Origin: Arbacia lixula
Lineage: Eukaryota > Echinodermata > Echinoidea > Arbacioida > Arbaciidae
Assembly: GCA_963669155.1 (NCBI GenBank)
Contig: OZ022576.1
Location: 24,324,150 to 24,388,149, forward strand
Direction: 5' to 3'
DNA length: 64,000 nucleotides
Shown here: piece after piece, positions 10,064 to 62,047 of the stretch
How positions within the stretch are numbered: position 1 is the stretch's first letter
Layout: every line of letters starts with the position of its first letter
Made by a program: the position numbers and the translations under genes
The notes under the pieces: model-generated
What the model was told of the DNA's origin: nothing
The model's database searches: none
Seen by the model: only the letters and a program-made list of their open reading frames with translations

Positions 10064-10162
10064 CTCAATGATGCGGTCATGGACACAGACCTGTGACCTC
10101 TCAGCTGGTCCCTTCTCATTCACCCTTGACACAATGATTCCTTCTGATATACCACCCTCACC
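10064..10162 (-). CDS. PDZRN3: PDZRN-like exon 3 (middle of PDZ1)
   Basis: The exon has 33 codons ([18 protein letters not shown], then ...VHDRIIE), a TTTTGCAG acceptor and a GTGAGT donor, with phase 0 at both ends. It matches the PDZ1 stretch of PDZRN proteins (SSSEGIFVSKIV...HDRIIEVNG in the vertebrate family). It directly follows exon 2 in frame. The donor is 31 bp from a palindromic MITE. Confidence 0.92.
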
Positions 10163-13100
10163 CTGCAAAAAAATAAAAAACACAAATCCAGTCATATTAT
10201 GGCCATAGAGCAGCATATTACAAACCTGGTATTAAAATTAAATATTGGTATGTTTGTATTGGAAATTCTCTCTGAGGACTTTTGCTGGTAATTTTAAGGG
10301 CAGACTTCTCAAATTCTGGAATTCAATCTATCTAGAACAAATATTTCAGTAGAATATTCACGTAAAATGACTACCCCTGACATGGTTTAATACCTGGTCA
10401 CAATGGCAATCAGTATATAATGAGGAAGGAAATTGTTAATTGATTTGCGACATAGCAAACCATTACTTACAGGAGTTTAACATTTCTGCCTGAACACAGT
10501 TCAGTCAAACATCTACATGGCTGCTTGGCCACCATGGATACATGTAGGTGACCCAGTTGGCAAAAGGCAAAAAGCGATGGGTAAACAAACAATATCCTTA
10601 CAAAATCCTTACTCCATTCATGATACACCCAAGGGTAAATTTTCCTACCCAAACCAAACATTTCCTCGTCCCTACATGCCCAGATAAACATTTGTTCTCA
10701 AAACTCAATACATCTTCCAACACATCCCAAGGTACATAAATACGCGCAATCATTTTGCACAAATACCAAGGGGGCGATTTCTTGGAGAAATAACAGAGGG
10801 GCACAGATGCGACTGATGTGCGGAACGTGGAATTTCTCCACTATCAGGCATGCTAGGATTTCATCCCTCCTGTCGCCCTGCCACCAAACTATTTGTGCCT
10901 CATTCATATTTGTCAAGAAATGAAGATGACATGACCCAAAGGCTATCTGGAAGATGGGACATGCATCCTACACTGACTGGAAGATGGGTTTGGGATACAT
11001 TAGGACTGCATCACTCCAGTAACACAAAAGGGGAGGGGGAGAAAGGAAATTGGATGTCAAGAAAATGTGAAAAGCGTTTGACTTTGGGGAAAGGGGTACT
11101 CTTACGAAGAAACAGAATAAGTCTGAGCATCTGTCTTCTTTCACCTATCTGGTGATGGGATGATTTTTACAAAATTATATTTTTGGTACAGGTATTACCA
11201 CAATACAGGGTAAGCTCCAGGAGTATCTTGGCACTAGCAGGAGGAAGGAGTAAGAGGGGGAGTCAGGGACTAAGGAGCATCTGTATGTACCCTCTTTCAT
11301 CCTCTTTCATCCTGAATATTTTGATGTGACAAGAGATGCATCCTTCCAGAGATGAGAGAGAGAGAGAGAGAGAGAGAGAGGGAGAAAAAGAGAGAGAGAG
11401 AAGAGAAGAGAGAGAGAGAGAGAGTGGGGAGAGAGAACAAGATGGAGCATGGGTCTCTGTCTCTGACCCTCCTTTTCCAGAATAATGATACACAGAACGT
11501 TCTATGAAAAAAAATCCATGCAAGCTACATCACAGGAACGATGAGAATGAGATAAAATACGATCTTGGTGTTAAACAATATTTAGATGAGTTTTATCAGA
11601 ATATGCTATTTAAGGACATGACATTTAGAGTAAAGGAGCACAATAAATCAGAGAGAGTGGCAGTGAGGGACAAATACAGCATACAGAGAAAGAGAGAGAG
11701 AGGGACAAGAAAAAAAGGAGCCTGCATCTGCATCTTCTCCTGGCCAGAGATGCGAGCCAACCTTCCCAACATCTGTGTATCTTTCAACTTGGGACATTCC
11801 TAAGGAAGACAGAATGCGCTGTTTATACAAGGCCCTGGTAGGCAGACATGCACATGGCTCATCCCCCTAAGACCGGGGATCTGGGGACTAAAGCCTTTGA
11901 GACTGCTGCCCATCCTCGCCGCATTAGGCCACTGCGACCTTCGTTCTTGTACCACTTTGTTTCGTTGTCTGGGACGGTCCGCTCCCGCATAAAGGGAGAT
12001 ATACGGGGGAAGGCTATCGCATCAATAGGTGTTGACTGGCAAACAGTGCAGGGCAACATTCAGAAACAAAACATGATCAAGGTGTAAAAGCTTGTATTTA
12101 CAGGGAATATAGATAGTTAACTGCAACTAAGTAGTTTTTAATAACTAAATAACATATTTGTCACATTGTCAAAACAAATCAAAATGGTTATGTGATTGTC
12201 ACCTTTGCAACATTAAAGATGTTATCTCAAGTTTTGACTCAGTGGATTATGCTTACTTATATCAATCATGTTAAATAATTCTGGAAGAAGACATATCGCA
12301 GCAAGAAAAAAAAAGAGTTTTAGATGTATTTCATTTCTATTCATCATCTGCCTCAAAAGAACTTTGTGATGCCAAGAATGTTTTTGAACTTATTCCAGGA
12401 ATGTAGCCCGTCTTGAGCCTCAAAATCCAATTTATACATCTGATCCTTTCTTGGGGAATTGAGGCAACTTTTGGAGCTGCCCTCTGAACTTGTATGATTG
12501 CCTGTTCTAAACATGAGTCTGTGATTTTACACGTACTTTGCCCCCCAACAGACATTTGGCAAATGGCCTTCGAGTAGTCTACCTGCTCACATCAGCCTTA
12601 GTTCTGTTTGATAATGAGAATCTTTTTCAATGTACTGTATACGCCAAATATTTCGCGGGGTCTTTATTTTCGCGAATGATGCAAATCTGGACTATTCGCG
12701 AATTTAACAACACACAAAATTATTCATACTAGTACTAGTACTCCACGATTGCGAATTTAACCACTCATGAAGGGGGCGTGTAAAATTATAATCACAAATA
12801 ACATGAAGTGTATGTAATGTAACAATTCTCATTCTAATATATTCAAATATCTTCAAGAATGTATATTCCCGAACAAATGGTACCCTGGTCATTGTGGCGT
12901 GTTCTGCTTTTGGTTAATGGGTTGGTAGGGATTTCTCATTAGCAATGCTCGCATACACTCTAGCAAGCACACAGTTCACAAACAAGCACAAGCTTTGCAC
13001 AAACATACAGCTTCTATGTACATCATGCAGGTTAGGCAATGACTAACATACTTGAAATACAATGCAGCTTTATCTTCACAATATAGGTGTATGTCTTCAT

Positions 13101-61100: not shown

Positions 61101-62047
61101 TTTTTTCCATAGACCATGTCAAGTGGAGAAATAGAGTCTGCATGTATAGAGCTACCAAATTAATCACGCTTTAATTTGATAACAATCATTTAAACGACGT
61201 AGTCATATCAGGAAAGACAGATTTACTGCGAATGTCCAGGGTGGCAATGAGTGCCCAAATGAACGTATTCGCAATGCACGTTAGGGGGCAAATCACCGCA
61301 GCACCGTCTCACACAGTGCTGCGACAGCTTAGTATTCAGTCATGAGTTTGTCATTTCTCCGTTCGAAATATCTTCCAAATTTACGTGTTTCACCTCTGCA
61401 CAGCGTTTAAATGTAGACAATGAGTATTCGATGCTTTGAGTTGAATTTGTACTTATTGAAAGCGCCTGAATCGTCCAAAATTTGTTTAAATTCTATTCTT
61501 CATCTAACTTCATCGGAGTTTCTCGAGAATCGTGGGTGCCGCCATTAGAATAAGCAACATTGGTATCGATCATATTAATTCTCGGTATCGCGATATCGGG
61601 TTGATATCGTGTTGATATCGCGTGCTGCCAGTAAAAAAAAAATTACACGGTAATTACAGGTAATTAACCAATCAGATTGCAGAGATTTTGACACCCATTC
61701 TATAACACATGCTATTCAAGGCTAGCTCCTGCTTAAATATGGCACTGGCCAGTAAGCAGTAGCTGACAGGTTCAGTTAATTTTCTGATTTGTTTTTTGTT
61801 CATTTGCAAAATCAAGCATCAAATCATGACTATTGAGCATGAGCCAAAGTTCTTTTCACATTGAAATTCCCCCTGAAAGCCTCTTTACAAATCATAGCTG
61901 TACCTGCTTTGTCGGTGAGTTCTGTAGCCGTCGTTGGCTCGCTTGGGCCTCCCGATCCGATCTTATTGACTGCGTAGACCCGGAAGGTGTATTGGGAGAA
62001 GGGTTCTAGCCCAGTCAGACGCACAGAGTTGGTCCCCTCTCCTGCTT
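54996..62047 (-). CDS. CNTN: Contactin-like GPI-anchored adhesion protein, 3' part (8 exons)
   Basis: Eight minus-strand exons join in frame to about 320 codons: the second half of FN3-1, FN3-2, FN3-3, FN3-4 and a GPI signal. FN3 hallmarks are present: the early Trp (ITWD, VSWN, VEWS) and the late Tyr (YTFRVYAVN, YEVRVQAEN, YSIVALAYS, YIITVQGYS). The second domain opens APSESPANVGGGGGNVGDL, close to the APxxxPSxVGGGGG linker of vertebrate contactins. Introns between domains are phase 1; introns inside FN3-2 to FN3-4 are phase 0. Known family role: axonal and glial cell-surface adhesion with six Ig and four FN3 domains; the Ig part lies to the right of the window. Other Ig/FN3 proteins are possible, but four FN3s followed by a GPI tail fits contactin best. 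Confidence 0.92.
55551..55678. mobile_element. Short MITE in contactin intron
   Basis: ACTCTTAACCTGCCG and CGGCAAGTTAAGAGT are near-perfect 15-bp inverted ends. The interior repeats GCCGCTGTC twice. No ORF. Confidence 0.55.
56049..56229 (-). CDS. CNTN: Contactin-like exon: second half of FN3-4
   Basis: 60 codons plus one base (IRFRKQGVFEED ... YIITVQGYSAGGSG ... SSITT). Acceptor TTGCTAG (phase 0), donor GTGAGA (phase 1). Confidence 0.92.
56804..56916 (-). CDS. CNTN: Contactin-like exon: first half of FN3-4
   Basis: APQQKPGNVELSVSG ... VTVEWSAITT ... LQGYK. Acceptor TTTCGCAG (phase 1), donor GTGAGA (phase 0). The W of VEWS is the FN3 core Trp. Confidence 0.92.
57297..57483 (-). CDS. CNTN: Contactin-like exon: second half of FN3-3
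   Basis: LLYWQQDSDRNN ... ANTQYSIVALAYSGGGNGPE ... TTYKT. Acceptor CCATACAG (phase 0), donor GTAGGC (phase 1). Confidence 0.92.
57794..57893. repeat. 50-bp tandem duplication in contactin intron
   Basis: Two units (57794-57843, 57844-57893) starting TTTCCCTCAGAATACCAACC, identical or nearly so, ending 22 bp below the exon at 57916. Confidence 0.93.
57916..58031 (-). CDS. CNTN: Contactin-like exon: first half of FN3-3
   Basis: APHVAPTEVSARPM ... SIEVSWNAIDPSG ... LEGYK. APxxAPTEV matches the contactin FN3-3 opening. Acceptor ATTGCAG (phase 1), donor GTAAAT (phase 0). Confidence 0.92.
59854..60085 (-). CDS. CNTN: Contactin-like exon: most of FN3-2
   Basis: 77 codons plus one base: VYPESMWNSDMVKYNVEWKR ... 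MYEVRVQAENDVGTGPFSEW ... YSYQE. Acceptor TCTGGCAG (phase 0), donor GTACTG (phase 1). Higher GC than the flanks. Confidence 0.93.
60402..60472 (-). CDS. CNTN: Contactin-like exon: start of FN3-2
   Basis: APSESPANVGGGGGNVGDLR then ITWD, 71 bp. Acceptor TTTTATCAG (phase 1), donor GTAAGT (phase 0). The VGGGGG linker is a strong contactin hallmark. Confidence 0.93.
60695..61733. mobile_element. Possible composite transposon-like segment
   Basis: AGTAGGAGCTAGCT (60695-60708) is mirrored by GGCTAGCTCCTGCT (61720-61733). ACCAATCAGATTGCAGAGAT occurs near 60961 and again near 61668 in the same orientation. A tight palindrome (60718-60882) lies at the left end. No ORF. It lies wholly inside the intron between FN3-1 and FN3-2. 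Boundaries are uncertain. Confidence 0.35.
60718..60882. repeat. Hairpin-forming inverted repeat
   Basis: ATGATGCACAGGTTT, GTGGGTCAGTAGGA and GGTACCTCTGAATT on the left are mirrored on the right (AATTCAGAGGTACC, TCCTACTGACCCAC, AAACCTGTGCATCAT). The loop holds GAGGCGAAGCCGAGTGGG. Confidence 0.75.
61904..62047 (-). CDS. CNTN: Contactin-like exon: second half of FN3-1
   Basis: AGEGTNSVRLTGLEPFSQYT ... FRVYAVNKIGSGGPSEPTTA ... TDKA. Acceptor TCTCGCAACAG; two bases of a split codon open the exon (phase 1). Donor GTACAG (phase 1). The L-x-P-x-x-x-Y-x-F-R-V-x-A-x-N pattern is the FN3 F strand. Confidence 0.92.

Follow-up and report, generated by a model that had tools for sequence, protein, structure and literature searches.

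Two neighbouring genes on the minus strand

The DNA considered here is a stretch of 64,000 nucleotides (contig OZ022576.1, positions 24,324,150 to 24,388,149 of the forward strand), which will be referred to as the window. It carries parts of two genes arranged in tandem on its minus strand: upstream, the 3' end of a gene that reads as a contactin and, downstream, the 5' part of a gene like PDZRN3 and PDZRN4 (LNX3/4). A first-pass annotation of the same letters had placed a contactin-like gene upstream of a PDZRN-like gene on one strand, and both were found in that order; the end points it gave for the pair proved to be exon edges, 62047 being the 5' edge of the contactin part and 10064 the 3' edge of PDZRN exon 3. 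From the contactin stop to the PDZRN ATG there are 33,828 bases. The same two families lie close together twice in the human genome, as CNTN1-PDZRN4 and CNTN3-PDZRN3, and the adjacency in the window is probably homologous to both. The features on which this reading is built are the following.

61904..62047, minus strand: contactin exon, second half of FN3-1; acceptor caacag, donor gtacag, in frame with the next exon; Pfam fn3 1.2e-07
60402..60472, minus strand: contactin exon, first part of FN3-2; splice model and contactin alignment
59854..60085, minus strand: contactin exon, rest of FN3-2; splice model, Pfam fn3 1.1e-07
57916..58031, minus strand: contactin exon, first part of FN3-3; splice model and contactin alignment
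57297..57483, minus strand: contactin exon, rest of FN3-3; splice model, top fn3 stretch in its own frame
56804..56916, minus strand: contactin exon, first part of FN3-4; splice model and CNTN2 alignment
56049..56229, minus strand: contactin exon, rest of FN3-4; splice model, beyond the CNTN2 alignment (which stops at residue 291)
54996..55117, minus strand: last contactin exon, with linker, hydrophobic C-terminal signal of glycosylphosphatidylinositol (GPI) type and stop; splice model and hydropathy
21168..54995, no strand: interval between the genes, no host gene recognised; Pfam six-frame scan and CpG
20463..21167, minus strand: PDZRN exon 1, with start codon, RING and TRAF-like zinc fingers (235 residues); Pfam RING and PDB matches
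18184..18276, minus strand: PDZRN exon 2, start of PDZ1 (31 residues); located by motif, joined PDB match
10064..10162, minus strand: PDZRN exon 3, middle of PDZ1 (33 residues); Pfam PDZ 0.0027, 18.5 bits, below the cut-off

The eight contactin exons, running from 62047 down to 54996, are bounded by eight AG acceptors and seven GT donors, all canonical, and once spliced they give an open frame of 387 residues closed by TGA; at the 5' edge, a possible alternative acceptor lies 6 bases further in. The product contains half of FN3-1, three complete FN3 domains and a GPI-type C-terminal signal. FN3-2 to FN3-4 are each cut by a phase-0 intron, the junctions between domains are of phase 1, and the Pfam fn3 matches are spread over all three minus-strand frames. 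The last 17 residues have a mean Kyte-Doolittle value of 2.2, and the preceding 23 residues one of -0.9; this end reads as a GPI-anchor signal without a cytoplasmic tail, predicting an anchored protein. Such an end separates contactins from L1, RPTP and most Dscam-like proteins.

Compared with the PDB (72 distinct sequences under 0.001, of which the best 60 were listed), the 387-residue product finds contactins 1-6 in its 12 best matches, with E values from 1.3e-45 to 8.4e-31, followed by RPTP-F (2.1e-23) and L1 (4.5e-23). RPTP-F trails the twelfth contactin chain by 24 bits, some short contactin chains scoring below RPTP-F. Residues 7-291 are collinear with CNTN2 646-929, and the domain order, from the second half of FN3-1 through FN3-2 to FN3-4, agrees with that of the family. 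Because the 12 top matches are contactins, the alignment with CNTN2 is collinear and a GPI-type end follows FN3-4, the FN3 gene is, by every feature visible in its letters, the 3' end of a contactin gene, as had been proposed. An L1, RPTP or Dscam identity was rejected, since it scores at least 24 bits below every one of the 12 top contactin chains. A motif search of 62-64 kb for the first half of FN3-1 gave two poor candidates, none of which was accepted; the upstream exons, which would encode the six N-terminal Ig domains of a contactin, fall beyond the window end at 64000.

The PDZRN exons measure 705, 93 and 99 bases, each a multiple of three and in phase 0, and together encode 299 residues, in the order of an N-terminal RING, zinc fingers and then the greater part of a PDZ domain. 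Translation would begin at the ATG at 21167, in a frame that opens past a stop just above 21272. The middle exon (18276-18184), absent from the first-pass annotation, was found by motif. Among the PDB matches listed for exon 1 are TRAF5, TRAF6, LNX1 and LNX2. The joined exons 2 and 3 match KIAA1095 best (6.5e-11), with Scribble next (6.9e-09); exon 3 alone places Scribble (0.00031) ahead of KIAA1095 (0.0012). We take KIAA1095 to be PDZRN3. As a lead only, 154 of 306 positions are identical to a provisional human PDZRN3 sequence, the PDZ part of which agrees with the KIAA1095 PDB chain.

Only the LNX family is reported to combine a RING with PDZ domains behind it; within the family, LNX3 and LNX4 have two PDZ domains and an LNX3H C terminus, and LNX1/2 four PDZ domains (PMC3162930; here and below, accession numbers refer to excerpts of the papers concerned). 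Since RING and PDZ occur in one gene and its joined PDZ exons are closest to KIAA1095, the gene appears to be LNX3/4 (PDZRN3/4)-like and much less probably an LNX1/2, the later exons being outside the set found. The PDZRN-like label given at first is thus borne out by the RING, the TRAF-like zinc fingers and the PDZ exons. The accompanying description of both products as surface proteins holds for the contactin and fails for PDZRN, an intracellular RING-type E3 ligase; for LNX3, for instance, ubiquitination of the muscle kinase MuSK and a resulting drop in MuSK surface expression are reported (PMC3162930). A Pfam scan of the minus strand of 1-12 kb showed the 10.1-kb exon alone, and a motif search below 10.1 kb yielded no candidate for the remainder of PDZ1; probably the gene extends to the left of the window. 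CpG stays low over 1-10063, up to that edge, as expected if the gene continues beyond it. Comparison of a PDZRN exon with a viral contig collection gave no match.

The interval, its CpG content and the source of the window

About 34 kb without a host gene had been proposed between the two genes. A Pfam scan of 21250-55000 in six frames, with E values up to 0.05, gave four matches, of which DDE_Tnp_4 alone lies above its curated cut-off (FAM176, UPF0239 and DNM3A_N fall below theirs); a hidden host gene was therefore rejected, and the 33,828 bases agree with the proposal. Over the window as a whole, Pfam was run on the minus strand throughout and on the plus strand except for about 10.0-21.2, 55.0-57.5 and 63.9-64.0 kb. 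At the gathering threshold, Rfam returned no matches in the window, and ARAGORN no tRNAs in it.

The DDE_Tnp_4 match (7.8e-13) belongs to a decayed transposase at 48930-49376 on the plus strand, presumably of Harbinger type; the match itself (about 49.0-49.4 kb) crosses the stop that ends the 48930-49325 frame. An inverted repeat at 24718-25046, with 130-base arms that are 91% complementary and a 69-base spacer, resembles a fold-back or miniature inverted-repeat transposable element. A diverged minisatellite occupies 27979-28546, with three copies spaced 142-150 bases from 28181, and overlaps long, probably non-coding open frames. The motif CACGAGAAGGGGCAGGGG occurs four times in this minisatellite and once at 40981, that is, five times in the window when as many as 3 mismatches are allowed, vs 0.02 expected. 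Two-copy tandem duplications, 95-100% identical and either recent or assembly-related, were found at 47397-47675 (141 bases), 46116-46404 (148) and 57794-57895 (50), the last of them in a contactin intron. The interval, which is rich in repeats, also carries microsatellites.

With exons and tandem arrays masked, the observed/expected ratio of CpG takes values of 0.38 (1-10 kb), 0.35 (10-16 kb) and 0.48 (contactin introns); it reaches 0.91 in 21.3-44 kb, with intermediate values of 0.64 (16-20.4 kb) and 0.66 (44-54.9 kb), and TpG/CpA shifts in the opposite direction across the window. A change-point scan places the best single high-CpG segment at 19401-50000 (0.93 inside, 0.42 outside), with a log-likelihood gain of 113.7 vs at most 23.2 in 200 permutations of the bins, a procedure that ignores correlation between neighbouring bins. 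In a circular-shift test of the gap against genic CpG, a fit poorer than that of the change-point scan, the observed difference was equalled or exceeded by 7 of 64 shifts, a count that includes the unshifted one. This weak result is partly explained by the depletion extending about 5 kb beyond the contactin stop.

That CpG-poor zone reaches to about 50 kb, and, judging by the CpG step, the contactin transcript may run equally far. Minus-strand AATAAA signals stand at 54124, 53033 and 51104.

Wide methylation makes vertebrate genomes CpG-poor. Depleted gene bodies beside undepleted intergenic DNA are the expected footprint of mosaic gene-body methylation, which is the pattern of most invertebrates, some being hypermethylated or unmethylated and vertebrates widely methylated (PMC11292947). 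On the protein side, the window contactin was compared over 240 shared columns with three of the six vertebrate paralogues, in an unrooted table in which CNTN4 is represented by PDB chain 7mrk. Its identity is 34.2% to CNTN2, 37.9% to CNTN4 and 38.3% to CNTN3, vs 47.5-67.5% among those three; using chain 7mrq instead, which has few printed differences and is maybe engineered, changes the CNTN3-CNTN4 value alone (65.8 vs 67.5%). Taken together, contactin identities and CpG pattern indicate that the source is very probably non-vertebrate, and a vertebrate source was rejected on both.

The ligase adds some detail. In a 2011 survey, LNX3/4 genes with RING and PDZ were reported from a hemichordate, an echinoderm, a cnidarian and a placozoan; the forms of arthropods, a nematode and amphioxus lacked the RING (PMC3162930). 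The RING-bearing gene of the window fits an ambulacrarian better than an amphioxus or an arthropod, with spiralians also possible.

Age of the linkage

In both human pairs we take the contactin to be upstream of the PDZRN gene on the same strand, as the first-pass annotation likewise supposed, and CNTN1 and PDZRN4 are presumably not separated by any protein gene. The closeness of the pairs can be read from published coordinates and lists. On human chromosome 3, PDZRN3 is placed at chr3:73382433-73624940 and CNTN3 at chr3:74262568-74521140 (PMC7187337), a distance of 637.6 kb; a gene list runs PPP4R2, PDZRN3, CNTN3 (PMC3038855), and a breakpoint between the last two is mentioned in a review (PMC7765395). 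CNTN1 and PDZRN4 are both among the 12q12 genes (PMC7465025), in the order LRRK2, CNTN1, PDZRN4, with the LRRK2/CNTN1 interval at chr12:40.66 Mb and a PDZRN4 intron at 41.26 Mb (PMC12719739). A list covering human 12 and zebrafish 4 has PDZRN4 next after CNTN1 (PMC3757083), and in pig a single-nucleotide polymorphism inside PDZRN4 is 720 kb from CNTN1 (PMC10298016). Thus, of what had been claimed for the human loci, proximity on 3p and 12q12 is supported by these excerpts, and order and orientation stand on presumed strands.

Because the invertebrate arrangement matches that presumed for both human pairs, we consider it probable that all three adjacencies are homologous, deriving from one contactin-PDZRN pair that is older than the whole-genome duplications of vertebrates and was copied in them as a unit. 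A non-vertebrate source and two human pairs together make the linkage likely older than those duplications, in keeping with the age first suggested; the argument draws on one invertebrate-like window and on the human strands as presumed, and common descent is what we infer from them.

Several points weigh against this. The support comes from a single invertebrate-like locus among Bilateria outside the vertebrates, and presumably only two of the six vertebrate contactins neighbour a PDZRN gene. The low contactin identity could reflect a fast rate and not early branching, as the comparison is unrooted and covers three paralogues. Genes with stable, high expression are the preferred targets of gene-body methylation (PMC11292947), and a contactin need not be one of them. 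Moreover, of the gene blocks (three genes or more) that first arose in the bilaterian ancestor, 84% are reported as lost in vertebrates (PMC8851819), so that retention of ancient order is not the rule in vertebrates.

Among other accounts of the matching gene order, chance, with the neighbours formed independently in the lineage of the window and in vertebrates, is very unlikely: by our own estimate for some 20,000 genes, a same-direction LNX3/4 downstream of a contactin would arise in about 1 in 10,000 cases per pair, and the human match is double. The window could be vertebrate and hold one of the known pairs, and would then be uninformative on age; the identities and the CpG contrast between 21.3-44 kb and the 1-16 kb and intronic DNA, set beside the wide methylation of vertebrate genomes, make this highly improbable. 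Equally slight is the prospect that the FN3 gene belongs to another Ig-FN3 family (L1, RPTP, Dscam or sidekick) or the RING-PDZ gene to LNX1/2. In favour of it, the window does not reach the Ig domains, LNX1/2 chains are among the matches of the RING exon with no PDZRN3/4-named chain in the best 60 of 83 PDB matches, and PDZ exon 3 alone prefers Scribble; the 24-bit lead over RPTP-F, the GPI-type protein end and the affinity of the joined PDZ exons to KIAA1095 all speak otherwise.

What may hold the pair together, and comparison with known systems

An ancestral linkage may have been kept by selection or without it. Under selection, as in the shared-enhancer idea of the first-pass annotation, cis-regulatory elements for one or both genes would be spread over the shared interval and the introns, and breaks between contactin and PDZRN would be selected against. 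We put forward tentatively, at a little under an even chance, that the pair is kept together in this way. The two retained human copies, in the face of the 84% block loss in vertebrates, are counted in favour of shared regulation. In human, variants at chr3:73.92 Mb, in the stretch from LINC02005 to CNTN3, are reported to associate with the expression of both CNTN3 and PDZRN3 (PMC10350496), which favours it weakly. The same report also supplies reasons for caution: the P values of the quantitative trait loci (QTL) are modest, from 1.1e-4 to 7.8e-3; the data, wherever a tissue is named, come from macrophage and stem cells; and one variant has its lowest methylation-QTL P value shown, 1.2e-83, for another gene, AKR1B1P2, a far stronger association (PMC10350496).

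On the other hand, passive retention of the ancestral linkage has close to an even prospect of being the explanation, slow rearrangement and large intergenic spaces being sufficient for it. In the window, a minisatellite, microsatellites and the remains of a transposase lie in the interval, and the intervals are of very unequal size, 33.8 kb here vs 637.6 kb for human PDZRN3-CNTN3. Against passive retention stand the two human copies, kept though vertebrates lost most ancient blocks (PMC8851819), and the association of variants in the human interval with both genes (PMC10350496). A stronger version of shared regulation, in which one regulatory domain common to contactin and LNX3/4 since the bilaterian ancestor survived both vertebrate genome duplications and coordinates an adhesion molecule with a ligase that trims synaptic receptors, is doubtful.

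The pair joins a cell-surface adhesion molecule and an intracellular E3 ubiquitin ligase. If the linkage were confirmed across phyla, it would provide a simple, datable pair, kept twice in human and in one or more invertebrates, on which preservation of gene order through shared regulation could be tested at genes other than transcription factors. Furthermore, it would give a reason to search in the PDZRN genes, or past them, for variants that regulate CNTN1 and CNTN3, and vice versa.

No description of a contactin-PDZRN microsynteny was met in the literature searched. A prior account in Irimia 2012 or Katoh 2004 is possible: Irimia and colleagues reportedly described microsyntenic gene pairs of ancient metazoan origin that are kept together through cis-regulatory constraint, and Katoh may have noted the two human loci. 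The main text of a paper on LNX evolution has no occurrence of contactin, CNTN or synten (PMC3162930).

Compared with its human counterparts on 12q12 and 3p12-13, the window has the same two families close together, alike in order and direction if the presumed strands hold; CNTN3 and PDZRN3 differ in lying 637.6 kb apart, apparently with LINC02005 between them. As in a genomic regulatory block with its target and bystander gene, two unrelated genes stand beside a long non-coding interval; the classic targets of such blocks are developmental transcription factors, whereas neither contactin nor PDZRN is one. With the ancient pairs of Irimia's type and the blocks of Robert and colleagues 2022 (PMC8851819), the contactin-PDZRN pair shares neighbours common to distant animals and a long non-coding interval. 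Robert and colleagues treat blocks of three or more genes (PMC8851819). Cis-regulatory constraint is, by report, what holds the pairs of Irimia's type, whereas for contactin-PDZRN such constraint is a proposal.

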